Source: Stieleria maiorica (GTDB lineage: Bacteria; Planctomycetota; Planctomycetia; Pirellulales; Pirellulaceae). From it: a DNA stretch of 64,000 bases. Shown piece by piece: positions 28,265-34,219 of the stretch (the first letter of the stretch is position 1; every line of letters starts with the position of its first letter). The notes below the pieces were generated by a model. That model saw nothing but the letters and a program-made list of their open reading frames with translations, did no database searches and was not told the DNA's origin. The position numbers and the translations under genes are program-made. The stretch lies in assembly GCF_008035925.1 (NCBI RefSeq), contig NZ_CP036264.1, positions 5,330,402 through 5,394,401 on the forward strand, read 5' to 3'.

Positions 28265-28570
28265 ATGCCATCGAATCACGATCCGTCGAGTTCACAGGAA
28301 GCCCCACCTTCCCCCCAGCCGCCGCGAGCCGTGCCGGATTTGGCCCTTGTTCGGACCGACCTTGCCAACGAGCGAACCCTGCTGGCCTATGGTCGAACCG
28401 CGCTGATGTTGGTCGCTACGGGCGTCTCATTGGTTAAATTCTTGGACGTGTCGTTCGATTTCGTCGTGCTCGGATGGGGACTGATCGGCTGTGGCGCGAT
28501 CGTCGGAGCGATCGGCACGTATCGATTCGCGTCCTTGAAACAACGGCTCAACAAAGTCCGCGAGGGTTAA
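28265..28570 (+). CDS. DUF202 (YidH-like) small inner-membrane protein
   Basis: 101 residues. Short polar N-terminus, then ALVRTDLANERTLLAYGRTAL, the signature of DUF202 proteins (LA-x-ERT-LAW/Y-x-RT), and two transmembrane helices (TALMLVATGVSLVKF and VLGWGLIGCGAIVGAIGTY). Function unknown; the fold occurs in bacterial YidH and in the eukaryotic VTC transporter-chaperone complex. ATG 28265 is chosen because upstream in-frame sequence crosses the hairpin repeat; GGGAGAA lies about 14 nt upstream. It ends 27 bp before the GAF-HlyD gene and may belong to that operon. Confidence 0.85.
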   Translation: MPSNHDPSSSQEAPPSPQPPRAVPDLALVRTDLANERTLLAYGRTALMLVATGVSLVKFLDVSFDFVVLGWGLIGCGAIVGAIGTYRFASLKQRLNKVREG

Positions 28571-28597
28571 CCAACATGCCAGGTCGGTGGTCCAGTC

Positions 28598-30364
28598 ATG
28601 CCCGATGATCCGTGGGAACGGTGTGCCGACGCCCTCGCGCGGCTTGAGGACCGCCTGAAGTCACCGATCGACCGTACCCTCTTTCCCGAGACAGCCGACG
28701 ACCTCTTGCAGCGATTGAACGCTATTTCGGCCCTCGCGATCTATTTTCCTGCCGATCAACTGCTCTGTCGTCGCGGCCAATCACTCGCCGGGGATCCGGA
28801 TCTGCGATGTCAGCATCCGGTGACGGAATCTTCGTCGCTGGCGATTCATCTGTGGCTGCAATCCTCCCCGCCACCCGACGCGGCGACAAAGCAGGCGATC
28901 GAGGAAGCGTTGCCGGCGATCGGCAACCTTTTGGTCGCGGCGGTCGCCCGAATCGGTTTGGCTCAATCACAACACGAACTTGACGCGCTCACGGAGCTAA
29001 GCGATCAACTGTTTGCCGAGGGTGATGCCGACGTGCGATTGCACCACATCGCCGCCGCGTTGGCCAAGTCGTTGCGTGTCGATCGATTGAGCCTGCTACG
29101 ACGATCGGATGCACGCTATGTAATGATCGGTTGCTCGGTCCAAGCTCGATTCGACCGACGAGCCGACCAGGTGTGGCGGACGCAAAAAGTCGCTCAAGCA
29201 ATCGATCAAGAACTGGATGCCCGTACGAGTTCGGTCATCACGCTGGAACACGAAGACGGCGATGCGATTGAGTCGTTCCTGCGAGCGGGGAACGCCACGC
29301 AACTGCAGGCGACTCGGCTGGGGGCGGATCGAATTCTGGTGATCGGCGAGTGTTTCGAATCGATACCACTCGACGCGACGAAACGGGGCACCGGCGATCT
29401 TTCACCACTACGTCGCCAGTTGTTTGATGCCGCCCTAGCGGACGTCCTCCGCCGCCAAGGTGAAAAGACTTGGGGCCGGTGGCGATCGACTTGGCAGAAA
29501 CCGGCCGCCCGCTGGCGACTGGCCGCTGCGGTCGCGGTGTTGCTGGTTCTTTGCCTGTATCCGATGACCATTCGTGTCGCTGCCGACGGCCGCATCGTCC
29601 CGCAAACCCAAACCGTCGTCCACGCCCCCGTGGACGGACAAATCGCGCGTCTGGAATGCGAATCCGGGATGGAAGTGACCAGTGGTCAGGTACTCTGTGT
29701 ATTCTCCAGCCATGACTTGGAATTGGAAATCACACGACTAGGCGGCGAATTGATCACCGTCGAGGAACAGTTACAAATCGCGGCGACGCGGCGCGGCGAC
29801 GAGTCCGGCCAGGACATCGGGTCGGATCGTCGAGTCTTGGAAGCCCGCCGCGGTGGACTTCGGCGGCAGATCGCCTTGCTGGAAAAACGCCGCGACCAGT
29901 TGGTCGTGCACAGTCCGATTGCGGGGATCGTCACGTTGTTGATGCCGGACGAAGATTTAGGCGGCCTGCAGACACCTCGACCGGTTCAACGCGGCGACGC
30001 CGTGATTCGCGTGATCAATCCGGCCGACGGGTATCGGGTCGAATTGGACGTGCCCGATCGTGAAGTCGGCTACGTGTTGGCCGCCTTGGAACGACAAACA
30101 GATGATCCGGTCGAGTGTCGATTCCGGCTGCGGTCTCAACCCCAGCGGCAGCGCCGCGGAACGCTGCTGGGGTTGGATCCATCGGCCTCGCTGGATCGCT
30201 TCGGGCGCTTGATCGTTGCGGCTTCGGTCCAGCCACACGAACACGACATCACGTTCAACGCCGACTCCGGAGTGGTCGGCTGGATCGACTGCAATCCGGC
30301 AGCCGCCGGATTCGTCCTCTCTCGCAAGGTGATCGAGCAACTCAGACTATGGGGATGGCTATGA
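28598..30364 (+). CDS. GAF-like domain plus HlyD-type membrane fusion protein
   Basis: 588 residues. Residues 1-290 are a soluble region; 130-290 has the pattern of a GAF domain (DALTELSDQLFAEGDADVRL, then strands with VITLEHEDGD). One transmembrane helix follows (LAAAVAVLLVLCLYPMTIRV, about 307-326), then a periplasmic adaptor: first lipoyl half APVDGQIARLECESGMEV, a short coiled coil (about 378-435), second lipoyl half VHSPIAGIVTLLMPDED, and beta-barrel domain. HlyD proteins bridge inner-membrane transporters to outer-membrane channels. A cytoplasmic GAF-like sensor on an adaptor is unusual. The stop overlaps the next ATG (ATGA). Confidence 0.82.
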   Translation: MPDDPWERCADALARLEDRLKSPIDRTLFPETADDLLQRLNAISALAIYFPADQLLCRRGQSLAGDPDLRCQHPVTESSSLAIHLWLQSSPPPDAATKQAIEEALPAIGNLLVAAVARIGLAQSQHELDALTELSDQLFAEGDADVRLHHIAAALAKSLRVDRLSLLRRSDARYVMIGCSVQARFDRRADQVWRTQKVAQAIDQELDARTSSVITLEHEDGDAIESFLRAGNATQLQATRLGADRILVIGECFESIPLDATKRGTGDLSPLRRQLFDAALADVLRRQGEKTWGRWRSTWQKPAARWRLAAAVAVLLVLCLYPMTIRVAADGRIVPQTQTVVHAPVDGQIARLECESGMEVTSGQVLCVFSSHDLELEITRLGGELITVEEQLQIAATRRGDESGQDIGSDRRVLEARRGGLRRQIALLEKRRDQLVVHSPIAGIVTLLMPDEDLGGLQTPRPVQRGDAVIRVINPADGYRVELDVPDREVGYVLAALERQTDDPVECRFRLRSQPQRQRRGTLLGLDPSASLDRFGRLIVAASVQPHEHDITFNADSGVVGWIDCNPAAAGFVLSRKVIEQLRLWGWL

Positions 30365-31491
30365 ATGAAGATCGTTTTCCAATGGGTTGTTGCCGTTTCA
30401 CGCTCGCTGACAATCGCGGCCCGGTCGTCTGGTCCGGCAGCCTGACGCGATTGATCGCCATCGTGTTGGTTCTTTGCATCACACAGATCGGCGCGGCGGA
30501 GGATCCTCAGGCGGCCAAGCCCAAAGTCATCGGCCCGCTGGTGATCAAGCTGATCGACCAGGTCGAGGTGCCGGCACTGGAATCGGGGCCGATCGCCGGC
30601 CTGGAAGTCAGGCTGGGTGATCCGGTCAAAGCCGGACAAGTGATCGCGCGAATCGACGACCACATCAGCCAGGCCCGGCACGAGCTGGCAGCGACCGAGT
30701 TGGCCACCAGTCGACAGCGATCCAGCCAGTATCGCGACGACGTGATTGCCGATACGGAATCCCAAGAGAAGGAAGCACTGCTGGAGCAACAACGCCTGTT
30801 GGCGAAGATCGCATCGGAAAAATCGCTCAACCAGGTTCGCGTTTCGGCAGCGGAAAAGGCAGAAGCGGTCGCCAAGAACGAATGGTCGCGAGCCGTCGAG
30901 GCGCGCGAGACCTTTGCCGACAGCGTCTCCGAATCCGAGCTGGAAAACTTGCGATTGAAATACGACCGTTCTCAATTGGAACGCGTCCAGGCCCAGTTTG
31001 AACAGAGGATGGACTTGTTGTCAGCCCAAAGCGAAACCCAGGGCGTCAAGATCGCCGAGCTGGCCGCTAAACGCGCCCAATTGCGACGCTCGGTGGCCCA
31101 GTCCGACGCCGAACTGTTGCGGATCGACATTGAAACGAAACAGAAAACACTGCACATCGCCGAATTGAGCGTGGCCCGCCATCGGGTCGTCGCTCCGATC
31201 GATGGTGTCGTGGTGGAAATTTACAAACGGCGCGGCGAATGGGTTCGCCCGGGAGATTCGGTTGTGCGTGTGATCAATCTGGATCAATTGCATGCCGAAG
31301 GATTTTTCAGCGGTCGTGTCCGACCGAAGCCCGGGCAAAAGGTCCGGTTGACATCGGCGGATCGAGAAGTCGTCGGAACGGTTGATTTTGTCAGCCCGGA
31401 ACGCGATCGCGTCAGTGGTGAGTTTCGCTTTCTGGTTGGCCTGGCCGGCGGCGAGTTCTTCCCGGGGGATCGTGTGGAAATCCAATGGTGA
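30361..31491 (+). CDS. HlyD/RND-type periplasmic adaptor with signal peptide
   Basis: 376 residues from ATG 30361, coupled to the previous stop by ATGA. Signal/anchor helix LIAIVLVLCITQIGAAED. Lipoyl half 1 (ALESGPIAGLEVRLGDPVKA), a long alpha-helical hairpin (about 100-270, coiled coil rich in E/R/Q/A), lipoyl half 2 (VVAPIDGVVVEIYKRRGEWV), then beta-barrel ending GGEFFPGDRVEIQW. This is the classic adaptor layout for tripartite export. No ABC or RND pump and no TolC partner lie in the window. It overlaps the next gene by 7 bp. Confidence 0.87.
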   Translation: MNEDRFPMGCCRFTLADNRGPVVWSGSLTRLIAIVLVLCITQIGAAEDPQAAKPKVIGPLVIKLIDQVEVPALESGPIAGLEVRLGDPVKAGQVIARIDDHISQARHELAATELATSRQRSSQYRDDVIADTESQEKEALLEQQRLLAKIASEKSLNQVRVSAAEKAEAVAKNEWSRAVEARETFADSVSESELENLRLKYDRSQLERVQAQFEQRMDLLSAQSETQGVKIAELAAKRAQLRRSVAQSDAELLRIDIETKQKTLHIAELSVARHRVVAPIDGVVVEIYKRRGEWVRPGDSVVRVINLDQLHAEGFFSGRVRPKPGQKVRLTSADREVVGTVDFVSPERDRVSGEFRFLVGLAGGEFFPGDRVEIQW

Positions 31492-33812
31492 GCGGACCGA
31501 CGCCGGGCGGCATACAAACCCACGCCAACACGCGCGGCCGTGACCTCTGGCGACTGAGGATGGATCTGCACTTCTGTTGGGTCGACGGTATCGGCGACGC
31601 GGATGGCTACTGGGTCGTGAACGATCCGTTGGCCGGCGAGTGGTTTTGCCTCTCGCGAGTCGAAAAGCGATTGTTAGAACTCGCCGATGGCTGTCGTTCG
31701 ATAGGCGAGCTGTGTCAGCTGGCCGCCGCGACCATCCGACCGCTGGAATCCAGCCTCAGCGCGTTGCTGTCGTTTTACACGCAAGCCCGTCGCAAGGGAC
31801 TGTTGCTGTCGGTCGGCGGCAGCGGCCCGATCGAGCAAACGTTGCAATCACAAGCCGCAGCCTCCGGTGGGCGATCCGTGCGTGCCGGCGGGATCGCCCG
31901 CTGGGTCAGCCGATTAGTGGCGTTTCGATTGCCGGGAATCAATCCGAACCGATGGCTGGGGCCGGCGAATCCGCCAACGCAAAGCGTGGTTCCGACGGCG
32001 GCGTTGCTGGTACCGATCTGTCTGGCAGTGATTGCGATCGCGCTGCTGGTCGGCCGCTTCGACGTGTTCGCGGCGGAAGTCTCACTGGCGATCGCACGAC
32101 GCGACCCGGTTTGGCTGGTCTGTCTGCTGATCACGATCGCCGTGGTCAAATCGGTTCACGAATTGGCGCACGTGCTGGCGTGTCGGCGTGTCGGCGCGGA
32201 ATGTCGCGAACTGGGGGTGATGCTGTTGTTCGCAACGCCCTGTTTGTACTGTGACGTTTCCGACTTGTGGCGTGTGCCCCGACGCGGCGAACGGGTTCTG
32301 GTTTCGGCCGCCGGCATGCTGGCCGAATTGTGCTTGGCCGGTTTGGCGACGATCCTGTGGGCGGCCACCGGGCCGTCGGTCCTTCACGACCTGGCACTGG
32401 TCGTCATGGTCGTCGGCGGCGTTTCCACCGTGCTGATCAACGGCAATCCGTTGCTGCGCTACGACGGCTACTTCATGTTGGCCGATTGGATCGGCGTCCC
32501 CAATCTTGCCCAGCGTGCCAGCGGGGTGATGCGTCATGCAGCCAGACGGATTGTCTGGGGTGTTGCGGCTGGCGTCCGGCCGAATGAGCCACTCGGCCGC
32601 GCCGTTCCGCCCAGCACGCTGTTGCTGTACGCCGCCGCCAGCGCCCTCTATCGCGTGTTCGTCGTGGGGGTGATCACCTTGTTGATCTACCACGCCTCGA
32701 TTGACGTCGGCGTGGGATGGTTGGGCGCCGCGTTTGCCGGGACGCTGCTGGGATCGATGCTGATGCGGGCCATCGGTCCGGTATTGCAACCACCAGATTC
32801 GGACTCGGTCGCGGTGGAGTCCATGAATGCAGAATCGTCAGCGGTCAAATCGTCAGCAGCCGAGACGCCGCAACGATGGTGGCATCATTCTCGGGCGGTC
32901 GCGGTGGTTTCGTGCATCTTCTTGCTGTTGGTCGTCGGCATGGTGATTCCGTTTCCAAGGCAAGTGGTGGTGCCGATGTTAGTGGTCGCCGCCGATCAAC
33001 AGGAACTGCTTGCGTTGGAATCCGGGCGGATCATCGAACTCGCCGAATCGGGAAGCCAAGTGACGGCAGGTCAGGTGTTGGTGCGGCTGCAAAACGATGC
33101 TTTGGACGATCAGCTTGCCAGCGCCCGGGCTGAACTGGACCTTGCGACCGCGCTGGTCGCGGCCTGGGAATCGCGCAAGGGATCGACCGGTGCAAACCCG
33201 ACCGCGCTTGCGCTCGCGGTCAAACGCCGAGACGCGGCGGAGCGGCAGCATCGGGTCCTGGCCAGGCGTGTCGATCGTCTGACGCTTGTCGCGCGTTCGG
33301 CCGGTCGCTTCGTGCATTCGATCCCGCGGCCGGTCGACGCGCGCGACCGACGATTGCGGTGCGGACAATGGGTGCCACGCAGCACACTGTTGGGTTGGGT
33401 CGGACACCCCATCGATCGAAACGGAATGGCATTGATCGATCAAGATCAGGTGGATTTGGTTCGCGCCGAACAAGTGGTGCGGGTCCGTCACGCGTCGATT
33501 TGGCCGGGGCGCGGCCGGGCAACGGTGCGACGGGTTGCCCGGGCCGCCAGGGAATCGATCCCCCCGGAGCTGTCAGCGGGCGACATCGCCAGGATCGATG
33601 GTGCAACATCACAGGACACGCGGACGCGGAACACGCAGTCTCGGGACGCACAGTTTCCGGACACGTTGTATTGGGTCCGAATCACGCTGGACGAACCGTT
33701 GCCGCTGACATTGCCGCCGCGATCGGTGGTCAGCGCAGAAATCCACGTGGATTCGATCAGCGTATGGAACCGGCTGCGACGATTCACGGCCTCGCAATAT
33801 CGAGGACTTTGA
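31485..33812 (+). CDS. PqqD-like / M50 metallopeptidase / HlyD fusion protein
   Basis: 775 residues. Residues 25-110 form a small winged-helix-like domain (DPLAGEWFCLSRVEKRLLEL) resembling the PqqD peptide-binding fold. Then a polytopic M50 (site-2-protease-like) region: zinc motif HELAH at 225-229 inside a membrane helix, and the third-ligand motif NPLLRYDGYFMLAD at 321-334, both intact. After the last helix (VSCIFLLLVVGMVIPFP) comes a periplasmic lipoyl/barrel region (about 495-620) like HlyD. So one chain carries a possible peptide-recognition domain, intramembrane protease and adaptor. Known homologues in planctomycetes are uncharacterised. ATG 31485 overlaps the previous gene by 7 bp. 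Confidence 0.82.
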   Translation: MVSGPTPGGIQTHANTRGRDLWRLRMDLHFCWVDGIGDADGYWVVNDPLAGEWFCLSRVEKRLLELADGCRSIGELCQLAAATIRPLESSLSALLSFYTQARRKGLLLSVGGSGPIEQTLQSQAAASGGRSVRAGGIARWVSRLVAFRLPGINPNRWLGPANPPTQSVVPTAALLVPICLAVIAIALLVGRFDVFAAEVSLAIARRDPVWLVCLLITIAVVKSVHELAHVLACRRVGAECRELGVMLLFATPCLYCDVSDLWRVPRRGERVLVSAAGMLAELCLAGLATILWAATGPSVLHDLALVVMVVGGVSTVLINGNPLLRYDGYFMLADWIGVPNLAQRASGVMRHAARRIVWGVAAGVRPNEPLGRAVPPSTLLLYAAASALYRVFVVGVITLLIYHASIDVGVGWLGAAFAGTLLGSMLMRAIGPVLQPPDSDSVAVESMNAESSAVKSSAAETPQRWWHHSRAVAVVSCIFLLLVVGMVIPFPRQVVVPMLVVAADQQELLALESGRIIELAESGSQVTAGQVLVRLQNDALDDQLASARAELDLATALVAAWESRKGSTGANPTALALAVKRRDAAERQHRVLARRVDRLTLVARSAGRFVHSIPRPVDARDRRLRCGQWVPRSTLLGWVGHPIDRNGMALIDQDQVDLVRAEQVVRVRHASIWPGRGRATVRRVARAARESIPPELSAGDIARIDGATSQDTRTRNTQSRDAQFPDTLYWVRITLDEPLPLTLPPRSVVSAEIHVDSISVWNRLRRFTASQYRGL

Positions 33813-33943: not shown

Positions 33944-34219
33944 ATGACAAACGAGCGAAACGGCGATGCGATTGTCGCGGAATCGTTTTTGGATGTCCGC
34001 GCCAAACTGCTTGAAGTCGCCGCCACGTTGGATCGAATCGACCGCGCATGCCAGTCGGGGACGTTGCAGGAGCCGGCCCAATCGAAGCGGGACCTGTTGA
34101 ACGCGGCAACGAAGATTGTGTTGTCCGACGCTCCCAACCGTGCCGAGCAACTGCAGCAATTGTTTTCTCGCGAATACGACGCCGACTGGCGCCGGCAATT
34201 TGGAATCACCGCCAACTGA
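33944..34219 (+). CDS. Small conserved-looking hypothetical protein
   Basis: 91 residues from ATG 33944; a GTG at 33896 would add 16 residues. Predicted all-helical and soluble: ESFLDVRAKLLEVAATLDRI, then AATKIVLSDAPNRAEQLQQL. No family recognised. It ends 48 bp before the TatD-like gene on the same strand and has normal codon usage, so it is likely real and possibly co-transcribed. Confidence 0.65.
   Translation: MTNERNGDAIVAESFLDVRAKLLEVAATLDRIDRACQSGTLQEPAQSKRDLLNAATKIVLSDAPNRAEQLQQLFSREYDADWRRQFGITAN

Follow-up and report, generated by a model that had tools for sequence, protein, structure and literature searches.

The 64,000-nucleotide stretch of Stieleria maiorica DNA analysed here (contig NZ_CP036264.1, positions 5,330,402 to 5,394,401; hereafter the window) carries, at positions 28265 to 33812 of its forward strand, a cluster of four genes for a small membrane protein, two HlyD-type adaptors and a fusion of a PqqD-like domain, an M50 intramembrane protease and a further adaptor part. 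Judging from sequence, gene neighbourhood and predicted structure, the cluster is probably one representative of a widespread and seemingly undescribed bacterial machine that would recognise and cut an N-terminal tag of giant proteins and aid their export. The first gene (28265..28570) encodes a DUF202 small membrane protein (Pfam PF02656, E 8.4e-14). The second (28598..30364) encodes a GAF-type HlyD adaptor (HlyD_3, E 1.1e-6) composed of an N-terminal part that is GAF by homology only, a hydrophobic helix and a periplasmic adaptor domain. The third (30361..31491, start ATG at 30361) encodes a middle HlyD adaptor (HlyD_3, E 2.8e-16) whose hydrophobic, signal-like N-terminus showed a maximum mean hydropathy of 2.62, and the fourth (31485..33812) encodes the fusion of 775 amino acids (aa). 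Direct reading of the DNA placed an ATGA overlap of the GAF-type and middle adaptor genes at 30361-30364 and a 7-bp overlap of the middle adaptor and fusion genes at 31485-31491. An earlier reading made from the letters of the window (the sequence-only reading) had given this gene set with its coordinates, frames and overlaps, and all were borne out by the Pfam matches and the direct reading. No ATP-binding cassette (ABC), resistance-nodulation-division (RND) or major facilitator superfamily (MFS) pump was recognised in the cluster with Pfam and NCBIfam profile searches, and the earlier statement that the locus has no ABC or RND pump and no TolC partner held in profile searches of the cluster and its neighbours.

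The fusion was modelled with AlphaFold2 from 48 aligned sequences, which gave a mean predicted local distance difference test score (pLDDT) of 77.1 and a predicted template modelling score of 0.64. Its fold was compared with VIA-align on Foldseek's best 1000 chains, where middling Z values are common according to the tool's own warning. RRE is the term for PqqD-like leader-binding domains, and residues 22-111 of the model (31548..31817; block pLDDT 60-86) aligned to TbiB1 with a leader (5v1v; Z 10.8, root-mean-square deviation (rmsd) 2.7, 86 of 88 residues), TigE (8vpo; Z 10.6), TbiB1 with another leader (5v1u; Z 10.5) and lasso B1 with its leader (6jx3; Z 10.3). In the model, the alignment of several RREs over nearly the whole domain at rmsd 1.9-2.7 is better than the Z background, and a shared fold by itself shows no function. 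The PqqD-like fold proposed by the sequence-only reading for residues 25-110 of this protein was recovered as a fold that aligned to leader-binding RREs. Pfam PqqD had no match to the window fusion itself and matched 23 of the 48 aligned family members, and a phmmer search of the fusion against PDB sequences gave no match.

The M50 core of the fusion (residues 204-407; 32094..32705) matched Pfam M50 at E 9.5e-5, which is under the Pfam cut-off, and contained the motifs HELAH (residue 225) and NPLLRYDGY (residue 321). Their H, E, H and D were invariant in 15 and in 48 aligned fusion sequences, and RseP aligned to the model at Z 10.2 over residues 209-407 (9j82) and at Z 9.5 over residues 204-402 (7w6x). 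The motifs, the invariant residues and the RseP-like predicted fold together agree with the intact M50 protease that had been read at this place. The best NCBIfam match of this part was the daptide HExxH protease NF041824 (E 3.5e-38; 131.7 bits, below the cut-off of 300), followed by the epipeptide protease YydH/LiaK NF058609 (E 8.2e-8, also below the cut-off). Daptide and epipeptide maturation proteases remove leaders, and M50 proteases normally cut membrane segments. Finally, residues 490-761 of the model (32952..33767) resembled the periplasmic adaptors MexA, AcrA and MacA with Z 11-14.

The term HlyD-type adaptor covers Pfam HlyD families in two of the chains and a MexA/MacA fold in two, the middle adaptor being assigned by sequence only and the adaptor part of the fusion by fold. 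Residues 298-579 of the GAF-type adaptor model aligned to MacA at Z 16.6, and the matches listed by the fold search of this protein lay only in residues of about 300-579, with none covering the N-terminal part. The GAF-like domain that had been ascribed to the first adaptor is putative and based on homology: GAF_2 matched 34 of 40 aligned members, while the window protein had no Pfam GAF match of its own and was modelled with low confidence across its N-terminal part.

Orthologues of the window copy were found in 7 of 13 congeners with 48-82% identity. Gene order was constant across all seven orthologous loci (one of them on a short contig that cuts two genes at its ends) for the three adaptors, the gene of 91 aa downstream and a TatD-like gene; a scattered three-gene order, which the sequence-only reading had named as a sign against its proposal, was not observed. 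The 91-aa gene (33944..34219 on the forward strand of the window) was present in 7/7 loci, and its membership of the unit is uncertain. DUF202 was present in six of the seven loci, the contig of the seventh beginning inside the next gene, and within the genus it is tied to the window-type copy. It was not found beside the other five fusion copies of the genome, where one chance-level match was returned (E 3.8). All seven orthologous fusions had open frames with HExxH and NPLLRYDGY intact. The ratios of nonsynonymous to synonymous substitution (dN/dS) against the nearest congener were 0.11 for DUF202, 0.21 for the GAF-type adaptor, 0.16 for the middle adaptor, 0.25 for the fusion and 0.29 for the 91-aa gene, compared to 0.03-0.05 for three flanking housekeeping genes. 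On these ratios the window cluster is constrained, yet it evolves faster than most of its surroundings. Overall, the order kept in the genus, the intact fusion motifs and the dN/dS of 0.11-0.25 indicate that the cluster is more than a chance arrangement.

The genome (9.9 Mb, one contig) contained six fusion loci including that of the window, and the other five each had an adjoining adaptor gene. One copy adjoins a gene of 4703 aa with an OEP gene slightly further away, and another adjoins a DUF4347/cadherin gene of about 3370 aa and an OEP gene. Both of these giants begin with a basic stretch followed by an LExRxL-type motif. NCBIfam LEPR-XLL (NF012209) had 14 matches in the genome at E ≤10, of which seven exceeded the cut-off; their frames measured 791-5014 residues. 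Among 14 control genomes, matches at E ≤10 occurred in 7 and matches over the cut-off in 1. An N-terminal LExRxLL-type motif was present in 12 of the 13 matches fetched as small stretches, and the fourteenth match was the giant beside fusion locus L007. The most hydrophobic 15-residue stretch had a mean hydropathy of 0.38-1.38 in 13 leaders of this genome, in a set that omits L157 (no regex match) and the giant of L001 and takes the earliest start codons as protein starts, compared to 2.01-2.62 in six signal peptides encoded by the same chromosome, and the measured leaders therefore do not look like ordinary Sec signals. A group of LEPR-XLL giants of about 2250, 3180, 2630 and 3040 aa was located at G000:C1:660000-698000 (L162, L163), far from the six fusion loci, and three of them share a second motif, RVFDFYxLE, that runs into the leader.

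Two short SecA genes were identified in the genome, encoding proteins of 780 aa (L159; G000:C1:2075000-2090000) and 646 aa (L160; 488000-502000). Both had SecA DEAD, preprotein-binding and P-loop domains and no scaffold/wing match in Pfam. The 646-aa gene lies about 13 kb from one of the fusion loci. At the window itself, no LEPR-like leader was found with a narrow regex over open reading frames (ORFs) of at least 150 codons, and no short genes other than DUF202 and the 91-aa gene were kept beside the window copy among genes of at least 60 codons. The sequence-only reading had suggested a search for a conserved precursor peptide or giant surface protein nearby; no giant was recognised at the window copy or in the 6-20 kb around its seven orthologues, whereas giants stand beside homologous loci elsewhere.

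Co-occurrence was examined in 199 genomes of the window's phylum, of which 46 were counted as having the fusion (best E <1e-60); 28 of 74 listed genomes were taken as adaptor-only from their E-values and listed ranges and were so counted without it. LEPR-XLL was over the cut-off in 22 of the 46 fusion genomes and in 2 of the 153 others (Fisher 1.6e-14, ignoring relatedness and genome size), and at E ≤0.1 the counts were 24/46 and 7/153. A second short-frame SecA was found in 28 of 40 fusion genomes and in 1 of 40 without the fusion (Fisher 8.7e-11, with the same two factors ignored), after sorting that excluded split genes, sub-threshold matches, one second long-frame SecA and fragments (55 and 281 codons). 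Of the 40 fusion genomes, 39 had one or more SecA matches, and in 12 the SecA match lay on the same strand as the fusion match and no more than 400 bases away. An adjacency count of 38/46 (34/46 with the same strand and a gap of 0-8 kb) was not relied on, contig identity being unchecked. This presence and absence comparison covers one phylum. In addition, LEPR-XLL was over the cut-off in 42 of 48 genomes drawn from 50 of the best 80 loci of the survey described below (two Phycisphaerae, the rest mainly Proteobacteria), the longest open frame measuring 14,414 residues.

The survey scanned about 85,000 species genomes and confirmed at least 568 loci, of which the best 80 were kept. The fusion was recovered in 76 of these, and four (L044, L054, L064 and L083) were dropped as the gene calls did not recover it. 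The tallies lean to the query subtype because the scan was led by an alphaproteobacterial protein and the best 80 of the 568 loci were kept, and contig ends cut many of the 76 loci. A GAF-type HlyD gene stood directly upstream of the fusion in 68 of the 76 loci and a further adaptor gene was found in 51. A SecA-like gene was present in 65 loci, directly downstream of the fusion in 58, and 50 loci contained somewhere an unlabelled ORF of at least 1000 aa, which is all that the survey counted as a giant, some being probably spurious. A simple motif test placed an ABC-like ORF somewhere in 5 loci, in 2 of them no more than five genes from the fusion. Among the 41 loci with 8 kb on both sides, the counts were 39 for the GAF-type adaptor, 39 for the SecA-like gene (33 directly downstream), 28 for a further adaptor, 37 for an ORF of at least 1000 aa and 6 for TolC; an ABC-like ORF was seen in 5, and in 2 it was no more than five genes away. 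A loose leader pattern was found in 21 of 47 large ORFs no more than two genes from the system with a visible N-terminus (several of these ORFs are probably spurious, and the match in L090_6 is probably chance), compared to 6 of 425 other genes; 18 of these others had at least 700 aa, and 2 of the 18 matched. In a FastTree phylogeny of the fusions with midpoint root, the E. coli, Burkholderia, Azospirillum and Magnetospirillum proteins formed one clade (support 0.999) with no SecA annotated beside them, and the clade of the window copy (support 0.859) held the paralogous copies L001, L003 and L005 together with relatives from its phylum. A SapC-family gene lies inside the unit at L012:17215-18036, and genes of 259-288 aa occupy the same place in L027-L032 and L035.

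A tblastn search matched the fusion in 81 plasmid records, including 18 from Escherichia and 8 from Citrobacter, and nine plasmid loci were examined with their neighbouring genes. In each of the nine, the fusion was accompanied by one or two more adaptors, and close by stood a giant gene or a large repeat gene, with a product of 493 to about 12,900 aa. TolC was annotated in six (Methylosinus, E. coli, Azospirillum, Thalassospira, Burkholderia and Magnetospirillum) and a SecA-like gene was present in four (Methylosinus, Pseudosulfitobacter, Mesorhizobium and Alisedimentitalea). The three plasmid SecA-like proteins that were scanned (638-674 aa) had SecA DEAD, preprotein-binding and P-loop domains and no scaffold/wing match. 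A leader-bearing large protein was found in eight of the nine loci, counting that of Alisedimentitalea, where the leader lies upstream of the annotated start. The leaders were of the LEPR/IEPR and LL(S/N/A)AD type in Methylosinus, Pseudosulfitobacter, Mesorhizobium, Thalassospira and Alisedimentitalea, and of the LExR and (F/Y)D type in E. coli, Azospirillum and Burkholderia. The locus on the E. coli IncF plasmid NZ_CP081687.1 (L013), of a subtype in which SecA was not seen in the vicinity, comprises three adaptor genes, TolC and an Ig-like giant. In three loci on alphaproteobacterial plasmids (L011:12699-13019, L020:9648-9944 and L015:11712-12017), the giant is followed by a DUF3467 gene of about 100 aa, and an unlabelled gene of 100-130 aa stands at this position in a number of genome loci.

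The homologous gene set thus occurs in many bacteria beside giants, often with TolC, and with a short SecA-like ATPase in most surveyed loci. A common N-terminal leader, with a basic stretch followed by an LExRxLLSAD-like motif and no Sec-like core where measured, is found in many of these giants. The association of the system with giants and leaders is strong, and from it we infer binding, cleavage and transport. With a probability of roughly two in three, we consider the cluster to encode those parts of a machine exporting giant surface proteins that sit in the inner membrane and the periplasm. In such a machine, the leader would be bound on the cytoplasmic side by the RRE domain, probably joining it as an extra beta strand, and the SecA-like ATPase would drive the chain across the inner membrane, either via the inner-membrane channel SecYEG or via the machine itself. 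Cleavage of the leader, perhaps behind LLSA, would fall to the M50 site. The periplasmic tunnel to TolC would be built by the three adaptors, and the GAF part may gate export by a cytoplasmic signal. The window copy would use unlinked partners because no cargo, TolC or SecA is linked to it, and would serve unlinked cargo together with an unlinked TolC and SecA; the two short SecA genes and the 14 LEPR-XLL matches (7 over the cut-off) are candidates in the genome. The most detailed version falls slightly short of even odds: an unnamed pathway over several phyla would export proteins as large as about 14,000 residues, their non-Sec LEPR-XLL leader being read by the RRE and cut by M50 within the membrane. 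A short SecA dedicated to the task would provide the push, and the three adaptor chains would form a mixed ring leading to TolC, while the GAF part would sense a cytoplasmic signal.

The sequence-only reading had proposed a self-contained peptide-processing or export machine in which PqqD recognises a leader, M50 cuts it and the adaptors pass it outwards. This sequence of steps would fit the predicted RRE fold and the leader-bearing giant neighbours, but the self-contained and small-peptide parts were not supported. The cargo suggested by the homologous loci is not a small peptide but a giant surface protein, which that reading had named as a search target. A self-contained peptide exporter was rejected as the first choice because the homologous loci carry giants and often TolC and SecA-like genes.

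Several observations weigh against the export machine. No giant gene, TolC or SecA was recognised beside the window copy or in the 6-20 kb around its seven orthologues, and a giant gene adjoined only two of the six fusion copies of the genome in the stretches fetched around them. TolC was found in only 13 of the 76 surveyed loci with a model made for this analysis from nine seeds, one (L009) judged by eye and the others by Pfam. SecA was not seen near the E. coli, Azospirillum, Burkholderia, Magnetospirillum and Thalassospira plasmid loci, for which the PLSDB gene tables are incomplete, and a second short SecA was absent in 12 of the 40 fusion genomes; SecA is therefore not universal in the system. 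The leader was absent in the Magnetospirillum neighbour (493 aa) and in the second large gene of the Azospirillum locus. In the co-occurrence set, 24 of the 46 fusion genomes were without LEPR-XLL over the cut-off, by a model that misses variants such as that of L001, and two genomes had a LEPR-XLL match and no fusion (G164, in an 88-aa frame, and G165). Five candidates were scored per genome, so some genomes may be wrongly counted as free of the fusion. Finally, the association with giants could instead mean anchoring or release.

Along this last line, the giants would take the ordinary Sec route, and the M50-HlyD cluster would later cut or release membrane-held giants while its adaptors anchor or space them at the surface. 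The normal cutting of membrane segments by M50 proteases agrees with such a later role, as do the SecA match in 39 of 40 fusion genomes, the low TolC count and the several loci without a SecA of their own. However, we regard it as unlikely, given that the measured leaders do not have a Sec-like hydrophobic core, that a second short SecA travels with the system and that the RRE fold suggests leader recognition rather than a surface task. It is rather improbable that the window copy has left the giant-protein role and become a peptide-processing or small-molecule efflux unit, in which PqqD-M50 would mature a small peptide for export by the adaptors and an unlinked pump. Only DUF202 and the 91-aa gene were kept nearby as short genes (at least 60 codons), profile searches showed no ABC, RND or MFS pump within the cluster, homologous clusters have giant-protein neighbourhoods, and the tree groups the window copy with L001, L003 and L005 at 0.859 support, although the missing giant, TolC and SecA at all seven orthologous loci, the daptide protease as best NCBIfam match of the M50 part and a DUF202 gene that was not found beside the other five copies speak for such a unit. 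A decaying or non-functional duplicate is very improbable, since a protein change faster than in most neighbours (81-92% identity to the nearest congener compared to 88-99%) and the orthologues in only 7 of 13 congeners are set against dN/dS of 0.11-0.25, open frames and intact HExxH and NPLLRYDGY in 7/7 orthologous fusions.

The proposed export machine resembles type I secretion in its HlyD adaptors, the TolC of many loci and its very large surface cargo, and it probably works like a type I system at the adaptor and TolC end. It differs in its proposed N-terminal signal and its extra RRE, M50 and SecA-like parts, and it falls outside the definition of a type I system because no ABC transporter was found to belong to the unit. 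The M50 core is shared with the daptide (NF041824) and epipeptide (YydH/LiaK, NF058609) proteases, but the window protein is below both cut-offs and fused to an adaptor, and the system is linked to giants and not to small peptides. The predicted RRE fold is like that of the RRE/PqqD domains of lasso-peptide, TigE and cyanobactin systems, including the TbiB1-leader and lasso B1-leader complexes, whereas here the domain is fused to an intramembrane protease and an adaptor. The short SecA proteins share the SecA DEAD, preprotein-binding and P-loop domains with accessory SecA (SecA2-like) but are linked to adaptors, measured 638-780 aa in the five scanned and showed Pfam scaffold/wing in none. For the giants with NCBIfam LEPR-XLL, so far a named domain only, the leader is the proposed cargo signal.

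The proposal bears on how bacteria may export their largest proteins when neither an ABC transporter nor an ordinary signal peptide is used. No paper describing the system or tying LEPR-XLL to an export machine was found, judged by titles and abstract starts, in a literature search that covered few subscription papers and no preprints. The passages of PMC8277102 that were examined describe no such system, and PqqD was not found in that text. If the export machine is real, the LEPR-XLL domain would gain a function and the recognition of peptide leaders would be joined to the secretion of giant proteins. A machine that spans from this planctomycete-like genome to plasmids of Proteobacteria would be named, and it would come with a sharp prediction of one leader motif, one binding domain and one protease site.

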